A stretch of 25,664 bases of DNA from a virus. The stretch covers positions 1 through 25,664 of the IMG/VR virus record IMGVR_UViG_3300047554_000147. One strand, written 5' to 3'. Below are positions 10,006 to 25,572 of this stretch, in pieces. Position 1 is the first letter of the stretch. Every line of letters begins with the position of its first letter. A program made the position numbers and the translations under genes. The notes under the pieces are model-generated. The model saw only the letters and a list, made by a program, of their open reading frames with translations. It made no database searches and was not told the origin of the DNA.

Positions 10006-10707
10006 TTATCTAACTTTAGCTAATCTAAAGAACCTAAGTATCTTTATATACTGCCAACCAATATCAAACTCATACCAACGTTTGCTGAACTTGGCTGAAG
10101 CACCGTCGCCGTGGTGATTGTTGTGTAGCTCTTCCCCACCAATCCAGAATGCCCAAGGTAGCAGGTTACGGCTAGTATCCTTGACATCATAGTTTCGATA
10201 ACCCCACCAATGTGCCGCACCGTTGATAACACCTGCGGCCCATACAGGAATCCACAGCATTTGAACACCCCAAATCACAAGTCCCACAGGTCCAAAAAGA
10301 GCAAGATCTATGATCAACATTAAAAGAATCCCTAGGCGACTGTGCGGGGTGTATAAGTTTTCCTCGATCCAATCCTCAGGTGTGCCCATGCCTAGATCGC
10401 GGACTAGTATTTTGTTTTTGCTGGCCTGATGATACAAGAAGGCGCCGCCGAACAACACACGCCAAATACCGTGTATCTTCGGTGAGTGTGGATCTTGTTC
10501 TGTGTCCGCGGCCTGATGGTGCTTGCGATGTATAGCCACCCATTGCTTGGTAACCATACCTGTGGTTAGCCATAACCAAAATCTCATGAAGTGTGCTACC
10601 ACTGGATGGAACTGCACTGCTCTGTGTGCCTGTGATCTGTGTAAGTAAAGAGTCACACACGCTATAGTGATTTGCACCATCACCAAGGTGTAGATAAATT
10701 CTATCAT
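10006..10707 (-). CDS. Acyl-lipid/acyl-CoA desaturase (fatty acid desaturase family)
   Basis: 233 aa from ATG 10707, which overlaps the aldolase stop (TAATG); a longer frame to 10779 is rejected because it lies inside the aldolase. All three histidine boxes of the membrane di-iron desaturases are present: HRSQAH (23-28), HRKHH (60-64) and HNNHH (194-198), plus NGAAHWWGYR with His165. Hydrophobic stretches at about 1-20, 41-55, 124-145 and 148-162 suit the membrane core. The enzyme should put a double bond into acyl chains, changing membrane fluidity. It is shorter than typical bacterial delta-9 desaturases but looks complete. It is the last gene of the late isocitrate lyase operon. Confidence 0.92.
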   Translation of the reverse strand: MIEFIYTLVMVQITIACVTLYLHRSQAHRAVQFHPVVAHFMRFWLWLTTGMVTKQWVAIHRKHHQAADTEQDPHSPKIHGIWRVLFGGAFLYHQASKNKILVRDLGMGTPEDWIEENLYTPHSRLGILLMLIIDLALFGPVGLVIWGVQMLWIPVWAAGVINGAAHWWGYRNYDVKDTSRNLLPWAFWIGGEELHNNHHGDGASAKFSKRWYEFDIGWQYIKILRFFRLAKVR

Positions 10708-11360
10708 TAATAATTCCCTGAGCTTAGAACGATCTTGCAGATGTGTTCTAAACGTTCTATGTGTTCGAAACTGCGCCATGGCGTAGAATCGATGGCCACG
10801 ACCCCGTGACCTTTTATTCCTACTATATCATACTTAATCTCACCAGTTAGGGGATTTAAACCCAACTTTTCATGACACTGATCGCCCAGCTCCTGCGAGA
10901 TAGGAGGCACATCGCCTACATTAGGTGCTACTCTAGTGTATCGACTTAATTCAGGAAAGTCTTTGACTAACTCTGAAAGTTCAATACCGGCATGCATGGC
11001 CGCTACGATGTAGGTAGGATGTATGTGTGTGACCACACGAACTTCATCTGTGTGTATCTCACGCTGTAGGCCAAAGTGCAGAGGCATTTCGCCCGTGGGC
11101 CTCAAGCCAATCGAGATGTCACTGTAGGGCATTTCTTCCCAACCATAGAGCATTTCTGCTGTGCCTGCGCCACTGTTGATGGTCCTAAGGATCTTGATCT
11201 TCTTGAACTGATCGGGCTGTAGTGTCTGCTTGCGGACGCCTGAGGGTGTGACATAGAAATGATCTCTGTCGTGATGGCGAATAGAGATGTTGCCATCCCT
11301 GCTGGTTATCCAGTTGCGCTTATATGCTTCTACTAATATATCGCAGATTGTTTCTAACAT
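10707..11360 (-). CDS. Class II aldolase/adducin family protein
   Basis: 217 aa with class II aldolase landmarks in order: DGNISIR (22-28), TPSG (38-41), RPTGEMPLH (87-95) with Glu91 as the likely catalytic acid, THIHP (111-115) with zinc ligands His112 and His114, and GIKGHGVVA (181-189) with the third His185. Family members cleave or epimerise sugar phosphates (fuculose-, ribulose-phosphate) or dehydrate methylthioribulose-phosphate; residues here do not choose between them. It begins 7 nt inside the end of the 79-aa gene and is coupled to the desaturase. Sugar or C2/C3 aldehyde metabolism is likely, the exact substrate unknown. Confidence 0.85.
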   Translation of the reverse strand: MLETICDILVEAYKRNWITSRDGNISIRHHDRDHFYVTPSGVRKQTLQPDQFKKIKILRTINSGAGTAEMLYGWEEMPYSDISIGLRPTGEMPLHFGLQREIHTDEVRVVTHIHPTYIVAAMHAGIELSELVKDFPELSRYTRVAPNVGDVPPISQELGDQCHEKLGLNPLTGEIKYDIVGIKGHGVVAIDSTPWRSFEHIERLEHICKIVLSSGNY

Positions 11361-11593
11361 TTATCTTCCTTTGCCAGTCTGGGGTCATTCCAGACATTGC
11401 GGTTATGTGAGACTGACTCTTTCAGCAGCCTAAACGTTTTCTCTTTTGGAGTTTCTGTGAAAGTAAAATACAGTGAGTTCAAAGGAGGTCTTCCAGTGTT
11501 CTCATCATAGAGTGTTCGATATTCATAATAAGAGGAAAGCCAGACTACCTGTCCGCTTGATACTCGTTGAGGTAGCCAGGCAAACTTACGCAT
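11354..11593 (-). CDS. Hypothetical 79-aa protein in isocitrate lyase operon
   Basis: 79 aa, soluble, aromatic-rich N-terminal half (VVWLSSYYEYRTLYDENTGR) and charged C-terminal helix (TPKEKTFRLLKESVSHNRN). Its ATG overlaps the isocitrate lyase stop (TGATG), and its end overlaps the aldolase start by 7 nt, so it is clearly part of the same coupled message. No family recognised. Confidence 0.72.
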   Translation of the reverse strand: MRKFAWLPQRVSSGQVVWLSSYYEYRTLYDENTGRPPLNSLYFTFTETPKEKTFRLLKESVSHNRNVWNDPRLAKEDKC

Positions 11594-12867
11594 CAGTGGA
11601 ACTGCTCCTCTTCTGTTGATCCTTTCAGTGCCTGTGTGGAGGCATCTTTCTCCACAGTAGTAGTGATAAGATCAAAGTAACCGGTGCCCACTTCACGCTG
11701 ATGTTTCACAGCTTCAAATCCAATAGCCGCATTGGCGAACTCCTGCTCCTGCATCTTGACGAACGCGGTCATACCTTCGCGAGCATAACCGTGTGCTAGT
11801 TCAAACATACCGTTGTTTAGATTGTGGAAACCTGCCAAGGTGATGAACTGGAACTTGTAGCCCATGGCACCTAGTTCACGTTGGAACCGGGAGATAGTAG
11901 CATCATCTAGATTCTTCTTCCAGTTAAAGCTAGGTGAGCAGTTGTAGGCTAGCATCTTATTCGGATAGTGTTTGTGGACTCGTTCTGCGAACTCTCTTGC
12001 GAACTCAAGATCTGGCTTCCCAGTTTCGCACCAGACCAAGTCGGCGTAAGGTGCATAAGCGATTGCTCTGCTGACGGCTTGATCGATTCCGTTTCTGGTC
12101 CTGTAGAATCCTTCAACAGTTCTTTCACCAGTAAGAAAAGGAATGTCATTATCATCGATGTCGCTAGTAATAAGATTACCAGCTTCGGCATCAGTTCGTG
12201 CAATAACAAGAGTAGGCACGCCCATAACATCAGCAGCGAGACGAGCGGCAACAAGTTTATTGACTGCTTCTCTGGTTGGAACAAGGACTTTACCTCCCAT
12301 ATGTCCGCATTTTTTAGCAGACGCTAGTTGATCTTCGAAGTGGACTCCTGCGGCGCCAGCTTCGATCATGTCTTTCATCAGTTCATAGGCATTTAGAACT
12401 CCGCCAAACCCTGCTTCGGCATCTGCCACGATCGGTGCGTAGAAATCCTGTTCCTTGCCTTCGCTCCATGCGATCTGATCAGCGCGAGCGAACGTGTTGT
12501 TGATCCTTCTTACCACTGCTGGCACGGAATCTGCTGGGTATAGACTTTGATCTGGATACATATCGCCGGCTAGGTTAGCATCTGCAGCGACCTGCCATCC
12601 TGATAGGTATATTGCTTTGAGTCCTGCTTTGACCTGCTGTAGGGCCTGCATGCCTGTCAGGGCTCCCAGTGTGTTGACGTAATCTTCTTCTAGAAGAAGG
12701 CGCCATAGTTTTTTTGATTGTTCAACAGCAAACTGATTTGGGTAAGTCTTTGAGCCTTGTAAGCGAACGACTTCCTCTGCTGTGTATGGTCTATGTATTC
12801 CATTCCAACGAGGATTAAGGGTCCAATCCTGTTGTAGAGCCTGCTGTCTCTGTGTGCGTTTATCCAT
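11593..12867 (-). CDS. aceA: Isocitrate lyase
   Basis: 424 aa, near the length of E. coli AceA and apparently intact. Active-site elements: YLSGW (87-91), ADAEAGFGG with Asp149, the signature KKCGHMGG with catalytic Cys187 and His189, and NCSPSFNW (309-316). It ends in GSTEEEQFH, like cellular enzymes. The enzyme splits isocitrate into glyoxylate and succinate, the first step of the glyoxylate shunt; no malate synthase is in the window. About seven residues are missing relative to E. coli near 136-142, outside the active site. AGGAGG sits 9 nt before ATG. A CATAAATA late promoter lies 26 nt upstream, so a phage late regulator, not the host, seems to control it. Confidence 0.97.
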
Positions 12868-13647: not shown

Positions 13648-14337
13648 ATGGAACTGTTTACACTCCAAGCCCTTTGGGCTTTTCTCGCTATCATCTTGAT
13701 AGACATCGTCTTAGCCGGAGATAACGCACTGGTTATCGGGATGGCTGCTAATCGACTACCGCCTGAACTTCGTAAGAAAGCGATATTCTGGGGCACCTTT
13801 GGTGCTATCGCTATACGCTTTGTCTCTGTGGCGGCCTTGACTTACCTACTAATGATTCCAGGACTGAGAGCCATTGGTGCTGCCGCACTGATATGGATCG
13901 GTTGGAAGTTGGTATTTGATTCGGGTGAACACGAAGTCAAAGCTTCGGACACATTCTGGGGTGCTATCTGGACTATCGTAGTCGCTGATGCTGTGATGGG
14001 CATAGACAATGCGCTGGGTATCGCTGCTGCGGCCAATGGTAGCTTGGTCCTAGTCATCGCTGGCTTACTGATTTCAGTGCCGATCATCTTGTTCGGTGCT
14101 ACACTAGTTTCAAAGATACTAGCACGTTGGCCAGACACTGTGTTCTTAGGATCGTTCGTTCTGTTCGCAGTGGCCTTCCTCATGCTGATGAAAGAACCCA
14201 TGATGGCTGCATGGTGGGCGGGTTTAGAACCCGTGATCGCTAAAATCTTACCTTGGACCGCAGCATTGGTTATCACTGCCGTTCAATACAACCAAGCTCG
14301 ATTACATTTGCACAAGAAGTATCTGTTCAAGTCATAA
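13648..14337 (+). CDS. TerC-family integral membrane protein (probable Mn2+ transporter)
   Basis: 229 aa with about seven hydrophobic segments. The family's metal-site motifs are intact: IDIVLAGDNALVIG with Asp19, Asp25 and Asn26, and VADAVMGIDNALGIA with Asp114, Asp120 and Asn121. TerC/Alx/YkoY proteins are linked to Mn2+ export and to metal loading of secreted enzymes, and many are governed by yybP-ykoY riboswitches exactly as here. AAGGAAAG precedes the ATG. The gene ends just before a terminator hairpin. In a phage this could lower toxic Mn2+ or feed Mn2+ to extracytoplasmic enzymes during infection; which one is inference. Confidence 0.93.
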   Translation: MELFTLQALWAFLAIILIDIVLAGDNALVIGMAANRLPPELRKKAIFWGTFGAIAIRFVSVAALTYLLMIPGLRAIGAAALIWIGWKLVFDSGEHEVKASDTFWGAIWTIVVADAVMGIDNALGIAAAANGSLVLVIAGLLISVPIILFGATLVSKILARWPDTVFLGSFVLFAVAFLMLMKEPMMAAWWAGLEPVIAKILPWTAALVITAVQYNQARLHLHKKYLFKS

Positions 14338-14341
14338 AAAA

Positions 14342-14356
14342 GGGCCCCAGGGGCCC
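14342..14356 (-). terminator. Terminator for the minus-strand 16011-14398 transcript
   Basis: GGGCCCC-A-GGGGCCC, followed on the minus strand by TTTTTT (14341-14336). It stands between the converging TerC and glycosyltransferase genes; on the plus strand no T run follows. Confidence 0.82.
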
Positions 14357-14397: not shown

Positions 14398-15105
14398 TCA
14401 ACCCCAATACTTGGATGAGTCTAGTCGGTCCCAGTATTCTCGATTGTTGCGATTCCAGAAGTTCTTGATCAGATACCAAGCCATACCAAAGTAACCCATC
14501 TTCTTGAACCGTCTACTGTCCTGTCCAAAGTGATGATCTAGTATCCGAAACTTCTTTGGGCTGTATTTCCTAGACAGGAAAAAGTCTTCGCTTGTGGCAA
14601 ACTGTTCAGGAAAGCCACCATACTCTTCGAATCGATCTCTGCGAGTGAGCATGAACGCTCCTACGGCAAATGGTGTGGTATATTTTAGAACATTGTTTAT
14701 GATGTTGAATATCGCAAAGCCTGCCTGTGCTAGGACATTACCGTCATAGCATCTAGCATTCAATCCTACGAGATCGAGATCGTTGTCTTCTAGCGCACGG
14801 ACAGCATCCTGTATCACAGTTGGCTTGAAGAAACGCACATCGCTGTCGATGAACAAGATATAAGGTGTAGAGGCTAATCTAGCACCGTTATTTTTTGCTT
14901 CGGACACAGGACCACCTTGTATGATTTCTACGTTGAGGTCGCCTTGGCTGTCTTTGATAACCTGTCTGGTATTGTCTGTGGAACAGTCTGCTATGATGAT
15001 CCTAGTGTTGCCAATGCCCTGTGCTCGCAGTGCATCTAACAAATGACTGATATAGAGTTCTTCGTTCTTACAGGGAACTACTATGGTTATTTTTTCTTCG
15101 AGCAT
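14398..15105 (-). CDS. Family 2 glycosyltransferase
   Basis: 235 aa with GT-A features: ITIVVPCKNEELYISHLLDA (6-25), IADCSTDNTRQVI (38-50), SEAKNNGARLAST (68-80), the metal-binding FIDSDV with Asp87 and Asp89, and ATSEDFFLSRK (about 168-178) as the acceptor-side ED motif. The C-terminus (GYFGMAWYLIKNFWNRN) is aromatic and could sit on a membrane surface. It transfers a sugar from a nucleotide-sugar; the acceptor could be a lipid, LPS or a virion component. It is the last gene after the PlcP-like phosphoesterase, and the 57-aa gene overlaps its start by 19 nt. Confidence 0.9.
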   Translation of the reverse strand: MLEEKITIVVPCKNEELYISHLLDALRAQGIGNTRIIIADCSTDNTRQVIKDSQGDLNVEIIQGGPVSEAKNNGARLASTPYILFIDSDVRFFKPTVIQDAVRALEDNDLDLVGLNARCYDGNVLAQAGFAIFNIINNVLKYTTPFAVGAFMLTRRDRFEEYGGFPEQFATSEDFFLSRKYSPKKFRILDHHFGQDSRRFKKMGYFGMAWYLIKNFWNRNNREYWDRLDSSKYWG

Positions 15106-15260
15106 TGTGTCTCCAACTTAAACTGTTTAAACTTTAGATCGTAATCAACGGTCTTGGCCGCTTCTAAGCACTGCTGTTCTGTTGGAAACGTCATCTGCAA
15201 CCTTGCTGGTCTGTCCTGTGGATCGTTTACGTGAACTGCTATTATTATCAGTAACCACAT
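15087..15260 (-). CDS. Hidden overlapping small membrane protein, 57 aa
   Basis: ATG at 15260 with a perfect AAGGAG at 8-13 nt upstream, in a different frame from the phosphoesterase gene that covers it. It encodes MWLLIIIAVHVNDPQDRPAR then LQMTFPTEQQCLEAAKTVDY and DLKFKQFKLETQCSKKK: a short membrane or signal segment, the HVNDPQDRP motif, and two Cys that could pair. The pattern resembles short proteins of T4-like marine phages. It overlaps the phosphoesterase by 116 nt and the glycosyltransferase start by 19 nt, so it bridges the two genes. Translation is strongly suggested by the Shine-Dalgarno and gene-like composition; function unknown. Confidence 0.68.
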   Translation of the reverse strand: MWLLIIIAVHVNDPQDRPARLQMTFPTEQQCLEAAKTVDYDLKFKQFKLETQCSKKK

Positions 15261-16011
15261 CGTCTCGCTCCTTGGTCCATGTAACTATTTCCCAACGACC
15301 GTCATGATGTTCTACCAGTGCGGTCATGGATTCTACCCAATCTCCATCATTCATGTATACTACATCGTCTATCATTTTAATCTCTGCGTGATGTATGTGT
15401 CCACAGATCACACCATCGAAACCACGCTTCTTGCAGTAGGCAGCTAGATTACGTTCAAACTGAAATATAAAGTCTACTGCTTTTTTTACACGAGCTTTGA
15501 GATACTTGCTCAGTGACCAGTAGCCAAATCCCATACGATGACGGATCCAGTTGAACTTGTTGTTCAGCATCAGAACAAAGTCATAGGCTTTATCTCCTAA
15601 GAAACTTAGCCAAGGAGCCAGTCTGGTGATACCATCAAACAAGTCTCCATGTGTGACTAGATAATGTTTACCGTCTGCACCTATGTGTTCTATCTGATTG
15701 ACCACTTCGATGTTGCCAAAGTTGATACCATATGGCATAAGAGGACGGAGGAATTCATCGTGATTGCCTGCTACGTATACAACACGGGTTCCACGCTTGG
15801 CATGACCCATGACACGACGGACTACATTGGTATGGCTCTGTTTCCAACGCCACTTGTTCTGTTGTATCCGCCAAGCATCTATGATGTCACCTACCATGTA
15901 GAGTGTTTCACAGGTGTTATGTTTGAGGAAGTTGTTCAGCTGTTCCGCTTTACAATCACGGGTTCCTAGGTGAACATCAGAGATAAAAATAGAGCGGTAA
16001 GTCTTTTGCAT
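15145..16011 (-). CDS. Calcineurin-like phosphoesterase, PlcP/LpxH type (COG2908-like)
   Basis: 288 aa. All metal-site motifs of this two-metal phosphoesterase family are present: FISDVHLGTR with Asp12/His14, MVGDIIDAWR with Asp42, VAGNHDEFLR with Asn83/His84, VTHGDLFD, and CGHIHHAEI. The extra GYWSLSKYLKARVKKAV and NDGDWVES motifs match the alphaproteobacterial branch that includes PlcP, which removes phospholipid head groups to give diacylglycerol under phosphate stress; LpxH of lipid A synthesis is the alternative. The last 35 residues are low-complexity and share DNA with an out-of-frame small gene. The start codon lies in the loop of a long perfect hairpin. Confidence 0.88.
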   Translation of the reverse strand: MQKTYRSIFISDVHLGTRDCKAEQLNNFLKHNTCETLYMVGDIIDAWRIQQNKWRWKQSHTNVVRRVMGHAKRGTRVVYVAGNHDEFLRPLMPYGINFGNIEVVNQIEHIGADGKHYLVTHGDLFDGITRLAPWLSFLGDKAYDFVLMLNNKFNWIRHRMGFGYWSLSKYLKARVKKAVDFIFQFERNLAAYCKKRGFDGVICGHIHHAEIKMIDDVVYMNDGDWVESMTALVEHHDGRWEIVTWTKERDDVVTDNNSSSRKRSTGQTSKVADDVSNRTAVLRSGQDR

Positions 16012-16030
16012 AGCAATATTTACCGCTCTA
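15990..16030. repeat. 11-bp perfect inverted repeat enclosing a start codon
   Basis: TAGAGCGGTAA (15990-16000) and TTACCGCTCTA (16020-16030) are exact inverted arms with a 19-nt loop that contains the phosphoesterase ATG (16011-16009). Inside the loop TTGC/GCAA (16006-16009, 16013-16016) can pair again around the start codon. It could be an RNA translation switch or a protein operator. Confidence 0.8.
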
Positions 16031-16055
16031 GAGTGTGTGTAATATTACAGTTCGA

Positions 16056-16214
16056 TTAAATCTGAACCACGGTCCAGCGGTTTGTAAATGCTTTACCTTC
16101 GGCCTTGCGTTTCAAGATTTTTTGGAACTCGATCTTCTTAAGTTCTGCCATCTTCTTGGCGTCGTGGTCGAAGCAAGCCTTATACAGTTCCGCTACTAGC
16201 TTTTTCTGTCGCAT
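16056..16214 (-). CDS. Small basic helical protein, 52 aa
   Basis: 52 aa ([52 protein letters not shown]). AAGGAGG lies about 10 nt before the ATG and a TGTAAATA late-promoter variant lies 23 nt upstream, so it has full expression signals of its own even though its first 19 nt overlap the end of the upstream gene. It is highly Lys/Arg-rich and helical, possibly nucleic-acid binding. No family recognised. Confidence 0.78.
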
Positions 16215-16849
16215 AGTCTTGCCCCTCCTTGTATAGTATTTACAAAATCTAACAATAACTTATAATGTCTTTGATCGTGCCAGTGAGGTTCTAGATATCG
16301 TTTATCATACCACCACTGTTCACTTTCTAAGTGACAGCCGATCAACCCAATGTTCCTTTGTATAATCGCCATAGCACTGCCGTTGCTATAACTAGCCACA
16401 GGGTCCATATTGTCGCCAACAAAACAACAACCATCATAGAAATACATCCTTTCATTGTGCCCCTGCCACTGCACAGGCATGGCCTTAGGGTGAGGTCTAC
16501 GTGTGCAGGCCTTAGGCTGCGTGATATACTGCTCTACTCTAATATCATCTAGGATATCAAAGTAATGCTGATCGGCCCAATAGGCGCCCATGCATATGCC
16601 TAGATATCTGCCGCCCGATTTTACAAAGTTACGAACTGCGTCATAGTTCCACTTCATCAAAACATCAAACCGATCCGCATCACCAAAGCCTCCGGGAAAG
16701 CACACACAGTCCACATCATCGAAGAACGTGGGTTCTACTTCATCTCTGGAAAATAGTTTGAAAGAATGTTGAGGGGATAGAGCTTTGATTATTCCGTTAG
16801 CGGAATCTACGGCACACACTGGCTGATGTATGAACACAGCGATTTTCAT
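16196..16849 (-). CDS. BPL_N-type class I glutamine-amidotransferase-like protein
   Basis: 217 aa with a flavodoxin-like class I amidotransferase layout: [13 protein letters not shown] (about 49-61), [14 protein letters not shown] (79-92) with the nucleophile Cys86 in the elbow, and [13 protein letters not shown] (168-180) giving His173 and Glu175, a complete Cys-His-Glu triad. The PGGxxD and CMGAYWA forms match the domain found at the N-terminus of eukaryotic biotin-protein ligases and in stand-alone bacterial proteins of poorly known role. No synthetase partner is fused or adjacent. It could act as an amidase or peptidase on a host metabolite or glycan. The promoter is unclear. Confidence 0.8.
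16237..16244 (-). promoter_or_regulatory. Late-promoter variant (TGTAAATA) for the 52-aa gene
   Basis: Minus-strand TGTAAATA within the end of the amidotransferase-like gene, 23 nt before ATG 16214. Confidence 0.55.
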
Positions 16850-23393: not shown

Positions 23394-23411
23394 TTGTAAT
23401 CTCCGATTGAA

Positions 23412-23419
23412 TATTTATC
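23412..23419 (-). promoter_or_regulatory. Late promoter (GATAAATA) for the tail operon
   Basis: Minus-strand GATAAATA, 19 nt before ATG 23393, in the 34-nt gap shared with the divergent ALA synthase gene. Confidence 0.75.
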
Positions 23420-23427
23420 GGTTAAAT

Positions 23428-24648
23428 ATGTTTACTATGATCAACAAAGAACATTTCAAACACTTAATCAAAGACCTTAAAGATTCAGGAAAATATCGTG
23501 TATTCAACGATATCGTTCGCGAGCGTGGGCAGTTTCCTAAGGCTATATGGTATGGACCTTATAATATTAAAACTATAGTTAATTGGTGCTCAAACGATTA
23601 CCTAGGTATGGGGCAGCACAAAGTAGTTTTAGATGCTATGCACACTGCCTTAGATCAAACAGGTGCAGGGTCAGGCGGCACACGTAACATAGGTGGTCAC
23701 AGTCACTATCACGTGGCTCTAGAGCATGAGTTGGCTATGTTGCACAACAAAAGCCGTGCCCTACTGTTTAGTTCAGCGTATGTGGCCAATGAGTGGACAC
23801 TGATCAGCCTTTCTAAAATAGTGCCGAACATACAGTTTATTTCTGACAGTAAAAATCACAACAGTTTGATCGTGGGTATTCAACACAGCCGAGCACCTAA
23901 GCAGGTATTTGAACACAACAATCTCGAAGATCTAGAAAACAAACTAGCCAACAGTAAGCTAGGAGGATTTACTCCTTGCATCGTATTCGAATCAGTGTAT
24001 TCCATGGATGGAGATGTATCGCCTATTCGAGAGATCTGCGACCTTGCTGACAAGTATCAGGCCATTACCTACATCGATGAAGTGCATGCCGTGGGCTTAT
24101 ATGGCACACACGGTGGCGGCAAAGTAGAAGAGCTAGGATTAGAAAATAGGATCGACATCATCAACGGCACACTGGGCAAAGCCTTTGGTGTCCAAGGCGG
24201 ATATGTTGCGGCTGATGCTGATGTTATAGATGCTATCCGTTCTGTGGCTGCGGGCTTTATCTTTACTACATCGATGAGTCCGGTGGCCTGTGCTGGTGCT
24301 CTAGCTGCGGTTAAATGGTTAAAGGATCACGATGAAGTTCGTGTCAAGCATCAAGAACGTGCTCGTAAGCTCAAACATAGATTAAATGCTAATGGTATCA
24401 CAGTCATGGAATGTTCTACCACTCACATAGTTCCTGTGCTTGTTGGTGATGCAGTAAAGTGTAAAGCGATTTCGGATATGTTGTTGAACGAATACAACAT
24501 CTATGTTCAGCCAATCAATTATCCTACAGTTGATGTGGGAACGGAGCGGTTACGTTTCGCACCTACTCCGTTTCACGACGATGGAATGATCGAAGATCTT
24601 ATTTCTGCTCTGACTGCTTCGTTTGCGTATCACCAGGTGCGAGCCTAA
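23428..24648 (+). CDS. hemA: 5-Aminolevulinate synthase (C4/Shemin pathway)
   Basis: 406 aa from ATG 23428; ATG 23437 is equally possible and a TTG at 23407 is less likely. The alpha-oxoamine synthase fold is complete: GRYRVF-like GKYRVFNDI (21-29), [13 protein letters not shown] (52-64), [13 protein letters not shown] (78-90), YIDEVHAVG (215-223), and GTLGKAFG (247-254) with the PLP lysine Lys251. GSGGTRNI and overall length favour ALA synthase over KBL or BioF. It joins glycine and succinyl-CoA to 5-aminolevulinate, the first heme precursor, a route confined mainly to alphaproteobacteria and mitochondria. It has no clear promoter or Shine-Dalgarno. Its 3' end overlaps the cupin gene by 50 nt. 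Confidence 0.93.
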
Positions 24649-24985
24649 AACGATCTTCTACGATGTCTGTAGTCCCTACTTCAAAGATCACAGTGTTAGG
24701 TTCTAGTGCTTCAACTTGATGCGGACTCATTTCAGCGAAGTCCGCGGTCTTGCCTGCTTCAAGCACTGCCTGTTTTAGTTCTCCAGTGCCTACATCAGTC
24801 CAGGTTATCTTTATCTTTCCTTCGTTGACAAACCAGCTCTTGCGTTTTTCTCTGTGAAACACTAGGCTAGTCTTAGCACCTACTCGTTCAAATACCAGTA
24901 TTTTCCCACAGTATTTGTCATTGTTGGCCCAGACTAATTCAAAGCCCCAGCCCTTGTCTATTTTTCCAGTTGGTTGTTGGTTCAT
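24599..24985 (-). CDS. Cupin-fold protein (sugar-phosphate isomerase-like)
   Basis: 128 aa. [20 protein letters not shown] then [20 protein letters not shown] and PHQVEAL follow the single-domain cupin related to the C-terminal half of mannose-6-phosphate isomerase / GDP-mannose pyrophosphorylase, common in T4-like marine phages. His residues in VFHREK and SPHQVE are candidate metal ligands. The role may be mannose or sedoheptulose phosphate handling, or simple sugar binding. It is coupled to clpP by an ATGA overlap. Its C-terminal tail ([11 protein letters not shown]) overlaps the end of the ALA synthase gene on the other strand. Confidence 0.8.
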
Positions 24986-25572
24986 GGTCGTTTCTCAATA
25001 ATTTTATCAATAAGTCCGTATTCTAATGCTTCTTCTGCACTCATGAATTTATCTCTATCCATGTCGCGCTCAAATTCTTCGTAGGTCTTGCCTTTGGTAT
25101 TATGCTTGACATACAGTTCTGTGAGACGCTGCTTGATGTGCATGATTTCTTTGTAACTGATCTCAATATCAGATGCCATACCTCTCGCACCACCACTGGG
25201 CTGATGGATCATATGTCTTGCGTTGGGCAACATAAAGCGTTTGCCCTTTGCTCCGGCATTGGCTAGGAATGATCCCATAGAACAGGCCTGCCCCATGACA
25301 TAGGTAGCTACGTCACACTTGATGAACTGCATAGTATCGTAAATGCTTAATCCTGCTGTGACCACACCCCCAGGACTGTTAATGAATAAGTTTATATCTT
25401 TGCCAGGATCTTCCGATTCCAAGAACAACATCTGTGCCACGATCAAATTAGCCATGTGGTCTTCTACTGGACCGTTCAGCATGATGATTCTTTCTTTGAG
25501 CAATCTACTATAGATATCAAAGGCTCGCTCTCCTTTGGATGTAGTTTCGATTACCATTGGGACTAGGGTCAT
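24982..25572 (-). CDS. clpP: ATP-dependent Clp protease proteolytic subunit
   Basis: 196 aa, close to the length of mature bacterial ClpP. The catalytic triad is complete: GQACSMGSF with Ser98, [11 protein letters not shown] with His123, and Asp172 in [20 protein letters not shown] and the oligomer-interface helix are conserved. No ATPase partner (ClpA/ClpX) is present, so the phage subunit presumably works with host ClpX/ClpA or replaces host ClpP in mixed rings. AAGGA lies 8 nt before the ATG, and a strong sigma70-type promoter lies upstream, so it is an early gene, co-transcribed with the cupin. Confidence 0.95.

Follow-up and report, generated by a model that had tools for sequence, protein, structure and literature searches.

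In this work, we describe a two-gene phage unit, a PlcP-type phosphoesterase followed by a glycosyltransferase, which is likely (with a probability of about 0.8) to be a phage-borne lipid-remodelling operon controlled by the PhoB protein of the host. The unit lies in a viral record of 25,664 bases (IMGVR_UViG_3300047554_000147, positions 1 to 25,664), referred to here in its whole length as the window. This reading is based on the gene order, the placement of the phosphoesterase in the PlcP branch, a near-universal pairing with a glycosyltransferase, the interchange of GT2 with Agt, a Pho-box promoter and the linkage to pstS. That the viral enzymes are active, which acceptor and donor the GT2 uses, that PhoB binds and that the phage benefits are inferences.

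In this view, PhoB of a phosphate-starved host would act on the Pho box and promote transcription of PlcP and GT2. PlcP would cut the phosphate-bearing head group off the membrane phospholipids PG and PE, leaving diacylglycerol, to which GT2 (Agt in sister phages) would transfer a sugar from a nucleotide sugar; the product would be a glycolipid, and the bilayer would stay intact. The released phosphate would go into viral nucleotides and DNA, often alongside a phage-encoded PstS. The two reactions are known for the bacterial homologues, of which PlcP turns PG/PE into diacylglycerol and Agt (GTcp) glycosylates diacylglycerol, with Pho boxes upstream (PMC4796936, PMC8231724), and they are carried over to the phage enzymes by analogy.

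Both genes are on the minus strand, head to tail, with 39 bp between them. The first (15145..16011; 288 aa; Metallophos, 6.7e-11) encodes a metallophosphoesterase predicted to be a phospholipase C producing diacylglycerol from phospholipid. The second (14398..15105; 235 aa; Glycos_transf_2, 7.6e-22) encodes a GT2 glycosyltransferase (GT-A fold) in the place of Agt, predicted to glycosylate diacylglycerol. Just 5' of PlcP we found a Pho box (16044..16061, minus strand), a PhoB-type direct repeat with an 11-bp period (ATTTAAT CGAA CTGTAAT) and one mismatch to the core TGTNA-N6-TGTNA. It is followed, 22 nt after the core, by a TAAATA promoter element (16017..16022, minus strand), which is -10-like and also fits the core of T4-type late promoters; the start codon is at 16011. 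Just 3' of GT2, between the convergent GT2 and TerC genes, there is an intrinsic terminator (14342..14356, minus strand), the GC-rich GGGCCCCTGGGGCCC-T6, with a 6-pair GC stem and a T-run. A preliminary description of the window had claimed a COG2908-type phosphoesterase and a GT2 at 14398-16011, sharing one transcript. The first claim held, as the reading frames lie where they were placed and the Pfam matches agree. The second held as an inference from sequence features, since the promoter, the short gap and the terminator support a single transcript well.

A conserved small ORF of 52 aa (16056..16214, minus strand) lies directly upstream of PlcP, a position it occupies in at least 23 loci (cluster c3). 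Its 3' end overlaps the Pho box, it has no Pfam match, and it is possibly not a part of the PlcP-GT2 unit. The next gene (16196-16849, minus strand) encodes a BPL_N/glutamine-amidotransferase-like protein that was found as a neighbour of PlcP, on one strand or the other, in 20 loci (cluster c4). The backbone of the record resembles that of T4-like phages, as indicated by short DNA matches to cyanophages and by a phage exonuclease (phrog_298). No tRNA that could point to the host was found in the window.

The phosphoesterase (16011-15145) is of the PlcP type and is not LpxH; its phospholipase C activity on PG/PE is inferred. Against a cut-off of 190 bits, the LpxH family model (TIGR01854) gave it only 33 bits, and membership in that family is thus not met. 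In the phosphoesterase tree, all eight LpxH sequences, taken from E. coli and seven genomes in which PlcP-type homologues occur as well, formed one clade (support 100, starred), with the phage and bacterial PlcP-type proteins on the other side (100, starred). Moreover, GNRD was present in the eight LpxH rows of the alignment and GNHD/E in all 80 bacterial rows and 83 of the 84 phage rows, one phage row being without match; the window protein has GNHD. On the grounds of score, motif and clade, an identity as LpxH was rejected. The metal ligands D12, H14, D42, N83, H121, H205 and H207 are invariant. True LpxH and PlcP coexist in several bacterial genomes, and it is to PlcP that the phage protein corresponds. 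The preliminary description had also pointed to PlcP-branch motifs and had named placement within LpxH, in a phylogeny with PlcP and LpxH references, as a refuting outcome; the motifs were confirmed and such a placement was not obtained.

The tree included homologues of Pelagibacteraceae and Rhodobacteraceae from PlcP-Agt operons and was built without the characterised PlcP of Phaeobacter or Sinorhizobium. It has long branches: one can rely on LpxH being separate from all other sequences, but not on the deeper joins (Mosig, S-SRM01, a fecal phage). The phage proteins make up an old and distinct clade, with about 55% identity to their closest bacterial counterparts, which are the PlcP of PlcP-Agt operons. 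Two observations concern genes filed as bacterial. A PlcP in a Methylotenera MAG contig (L090, 6001-6738) falls inside the phage clade and has phage-like neighbours, which indicates a prophage or viral contamination, and three Pseudomonas aeruginosa plasmids (NZ_CP137508.1, CP075839.1 and NZ_CP042268.1) carry PlcP-type genes, 55% identical to the phage protein, under the name LpxH.

Relatives of the phage PlcP were confirmed in at least 599 stretches of IMG/VR, and their pairing with a glycosyltransferase goes far beyond chance. Sequence past PlcP was available for 77 of the 80 closest viral loci, and all 77 have a glycosyltransferase on the same strand, immediately next in 75 and separated by one gene in two. 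This enzyme is a GT2 in 43 loci and a GT4 in 34, with no locus having both. The reverse searches gave a similar picture: starting from GT2, PlcP was found right before it in 77/77 loci with enough upstream sequence, and starting from GT4, PlcP was adjacent, overlapping or one gene off in 78/79. When 308 loci were pooled, 154 had GT4, 132 had GT2, 22 had neither and none had both. Among 18 large viral records (116-525 kb), 17 hold exactly one type, and one of 525 kb (G425) holds both at separate places. The genomic surroundings vary widely among viral loci, suggesting that the pair moves as one unit. An apparent single-frame fusion of PlcP and GT4 in one locus (L007) was discarded, as a stop codon separates the two genes. 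Some phages, for example Mosig and up to 16 of 73 Mosig-type loci, are without a glycosyltransferase beside PlcP. Where Mosig and some marine relatives have a lone PlcP, one may speculate that the Agt of the host serves. We consider it likely that the unit, carried by hundreds of aquatic phages, swaps lipid phosphate for sugar, the enzyme activities being inferred.

The phage GT4s are clear homologues of Agt. They keep the Agt signatures GRVxxEKN, FPSxxDTFG, YHTKFPE and IATEGPxG and are 34-44% identical to the GT4s of bacterial PlcP-Agt operons, including that of a Pelagibacteraceae genome. Three phage loci (L033, L041 and L043) share the backbone and many syntenic genes of the window, yet have GT4 in the place of GT2. 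On the PlcP tree we counted at least 11 exchanges between GT2 and GT4 when only the starred (well-supported) branches were used, and 38 on the full tree. Since two unrelated families, GT2 (GT-A) and GT4 (GT-B), alternate in a single slot behind PlcP, GT2 probably does the job of Agt, that is, the glycosylation of the diacylglycerol released by PlcP. The preliminary description had warned that a GT2 is not the usual Agt (GT4) and that the link was inferential, which is still the case, although the alternation has strengthened it; it had also held that glycosyltransferase homologues acting on LPS or virion proteins would speak against the idea, and these are not indicated by the context, the viral GT2 standing behind PlcP in 77/77 testable loci.

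The GT2 protein itself says less about its substrate. The DxD metal motif (D87/D89) and the catalytic acidic residues (E173/D174) are invariant, a general feature of GT2 enzymes that is not specific. A structure model (mean pLDDT 71) had PcManGT (Z 17.8, rmsd 3.8, 216 aligned) and dolichyl-phosphate mannose synthase (Z 17.0, rmsd 4.2, 212 aligned) as its best fold matches. The lipid-linked enzymes at the top of the list are merely compatible, as far as a model can predict, with a lipid acceptor, and naming the acceptor from the fold was abandoned, because many unrelated GT2s score close to the lipid-phosphate glycosyltransferases. To our knowledge there is no characterised diacylglycerol glycosyltransferase close to the phage GT2, only remote ones. 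Sugar transfer to diacylglycerol is therefore inferred only from context and from the exchange with Agt, and both acceptor and sugar donor are inferences. Bacterial relatives of the phage GT2 turned up in 7 of 398 proteobacterial genomes (E<=1e-15). In six of the seven (L418-L423) the gene directly adjoins that of a similar membrane protein, and for the four proteins tested Pfam gave VTT/DedA + LssY_C; the short flanks examined showed no PlcP. Such neighbours offer a tentative hint that this GT2 branch has a lipid-linked role in cells too.

The Pho box of the window belongs to a pattern common to the viral loci. Of 191 non-redundant viral loci, 72 have the exact core TGTNA-N6-TGTNA upstream of PlcP, where chance would give 1.3; only the 11-bp period is enriched, ten other spacings giving 0-3. 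With up to one mismatch, and between -75 and -20, a box is present in 113 of the 191 loci, where about 3 would be expected (about 1-2% of random stretches). The TAAATA element follows the box in 99 of the 113, at 12, 22 or 23 nt (39, 41 and 19 loci, respectively), which corresponds to steps of roughly one turn of the helix. Boxes are found mainly in the PlcP clade to which the window belongs; among representatives at <80% identity the count falls to 7 of 34, still with p ~3e-7. Across all fetched viral DNA, and counting redundant loci, the composite promoter of box and TAAATA was found only before PlcP (112), PstS (30), a 232-aa repeat protein (16) and a 117-aa acidic protein (11). The last two (L073, 3314 onward, and L277, 3989 onward, respectively) are families of unknown function that become candidates for a phage Pho regulon through the common promoter. 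In the promoters of bacterial PlcP, the motif (up to one mismatch, 250 bp) was present in 21 of 80, against about 2.4% in random sequence. With its one mismatch, the window meets the Pho-box criterion of the Pho regulon; PhoB binding and induction by phosphate starvation are inferred, in the absence of binding data. It is well known from cyanophages that PhoBR can control phage genes, and predicted phage Pho boxes are sometimes inactive (PMC10976474).

Phosphate genes also accompany the unit. In 17 of 195 non-redundant loci a pstS lies within 300 bp upstream of PlcP, and in the cultured pelagiphage Mosig the two genes adjoin. PstS scored 399 bits against a cut-off of 339. In one locus (L072), a phosphate-selective porin O/P (PF07396, 5.9e-34) and PstS precede PlcP-GT2, making up a complete phosphate module on phage DNA. 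A second porin was considered in two other loci (L013 and L080) and rejected, since the upstream protein of 465-478 aa does not look porin-like by sequence. The suggestion of the preliminary description that the unit frees phosphate is further supported by the Pho boxes and the neighbouring pstS, the enzyme activity and a link to phosphate-poor waters remaining inferred. One sister phage has a PstS with 58-75% identity to those of Burkholderiaceae, whereas a phage AlaS was closest to that of Pelagibacteraceae (PMC11480375), and the host is therefore left open.

The closest known system is the PlcP-Agt operon of SAR11, relatives of Agrobacterium and other Proteobacteria (PMC4796936, PMC8231724), which likewise combines a PlcP-type enzyme, a glycosyltransferase directly downstream and a Pho box upstream. 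A GT4 follows PlcP at a distance of up to about 430 bp in 51 of the 80 top bacterial loci; one of these is in a Rhodobacteraceae MAG (L164) and another, with a gap of 10 bp, in a SAR11 genome (L151). The phage unit differs in that GT2 replaces Agt in the window and in about half of the phages, so that the window fails the criterion of a GT4-type Agt, in that its promoter joins the Pho box with a TAAATA element, and in its frequent linkage to a phage pstS. The pstS and other PhoBR-controlled genes of cyanophages (PMC10976474) resemble our proposal in being auxiliary genes under the phosphate-starvation regulator of the host, with pstS shared. Those genes serve phosphate uptake and nucleotide recycling, whereas the PlcP unit would serve membrane phospholipid turnover; the type of Pho box also differs, and the hosts of the PlcP unit, judged by homology, are proteobacterial. 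LpxH (UDP-2,3-diacylglucosamine pyrophosphatase) shares the calcineurin-like lipid phosphoesterase superfamily with the phage PlcP, but differs in clade and motif.

We found no report of a viral PlcP/Agt cassette in the open-access literature searched, with preprints and most subscription journals outside the scope. Within that literature, the cassette is known as a bacterial operon, and what is new here is its occurrence as a phage operon, the replacement glycosyltransferase and the phage-wide Pho control. Membrane phospholipid is a large cellular pool of phosphorus and viral DNA synthesis is phosphorus-hungry; the known phosphorus strategies of phages are uptake (pstS) and the recycling of host nucleotides. 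If our reading is correct, a third strategy would exist, in which the membrane is tapped yet kept whole. Infection would then shift the lipid make-up of bacterioplankton and represent a viral source for glycolipids in natural waters. Our reading would also account for a gene family that viral surveys wrongly list under lipopolysaccharide synthesis (lpxH, K03269). Viral transcripts from Lake Baikal include a gene named lpxH, K03269 (PMC9611531), which could possibly be an expressed but misfiled PlcP, its sequence identity being unconfirmed. Furthermore, the exchange between GT2 and Agt points to a new family of candidate lipid glycosyltransferases.

A bolder reading, towards which we lean only slightly, is that lytic aquatic phages own a Pho regulon made up of PlcP with Agt or an unrelated GT2, PstS, sometimes a phosphate porin, and the two unknown proteins. 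With it they would hijack host PhoB to mine the phosphate of membrane phospholipids and rebuild the membrane with glycolipids, and the GT2 would be a new phage family of glycolipid synthases and would have taken the place of Agt repeatedly.

Among the alternatives, one accepts the same chemistry and assigns it another purpose, the lipid change blocking superinfection or altering lysis rather than saving phosphate. Phages often alter host surfaces. Lipid changes affect phage attachment in Ruegeria (PMC9938194), GT2 enzymes are typical of O-antigen conversion and the GT2 of the window has a weak match to phrog_841. Nevertheless, the Pho-box control and the linkage to pstS and a phosphate porin indicate phosphate, and such a function would not need a phosphate-starvation promoter, which makes this alternative unlikely. 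Equally unlikely, in our opinion, is that another regulator of the OmpR family, or a phage factor, binds the 11-bp repeat and that the operon is not phosphate-controlled. In its favour, the viral consensus is TGTAAT/C and not the TGTCAT of E. coli, only some of the bacterial PlcP promoters have the motif and TAAATA fits T4-type late promoters. However, the half-sites are spaced just as in PhoB sites, and pstS, a textbook Pho gene, has the same promoter in front of it.

It is very unlikely that GT2 modifies phage DNA or virion proteins with PlcP as a chance neighbour; the GT2 family is diverse, its fold is common to many enzymes and the acceptor cannot be read from sequence, but the 77/77 association with PlcP and the recurrent exchanges with Agt at one position argue against it. 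Finally, an LpxH-like enzyme acting with GT2 on lipid A or LPS, in line with the present annotation as UDP-2,3-diacylglucosamine hydrolase, draws on distant homology, on LpxH being the closest solved structures (PDB) to the window phosphoesterase and on database names (K03269 in PMC9611531), and is all but excluded by the model score, the clade, the motif and the coexistence of both enzymes in bacterial genomes.

Besides the lipid-remodelling unit that we favour, the window encodes an acyl desaturase of the DesA family (10006..10779, minus strand), with three His boxes and a score of 411 bits (cut-off 400). Desaturases that act on host membrane lipids are known from cyanophages (Roitman et al. 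2018, cited in PMC11480375); unlike the PlcP unit, they alter acyl chains and not head groups and free no phosphate. The start of the gene is 3.6 kb past the stop of GT2, beyond the terminator and two genes on the opposite strand (TerC and HAD), suggesting a separate transcript. Of 195 non-redundant loci, 39 have a desaturase in the neighbourhood of the cassette, 13 of them within 1.5 kb. The preliminary description had placed a desaturase 4 kb away from the pair; the gene is real, but it lies outside the transcript and near only some cassettes. It is loosely tied to the unit, and a related function is no more than possible.

The TerC gene (13648-14337, plus strand) encodes a metal transporter of the YjbE type. 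A ClpP (24982-25572, minus strand) scored 306 bits, just short of the bacterial cut-off of 308.6. The window also has a 5-aminolevulinate synthase (23407-24648, plus strand; 572 bits, cut-off 339); a phage gene for this enzyme (AlaS, Shemin pathway) has been described and shown to be active for the freshwater phage CB_2 (PMC11480375). A full-length isocitrate lyase, an enzyme of the glyoxylate shunt (11593-12867, minus strand; 768 bits, cut-off 562), is adjoined by a class II aldolase (10707-11360) and is also found, with 93-95% identity, in three other loci (L004, L033 and L043).
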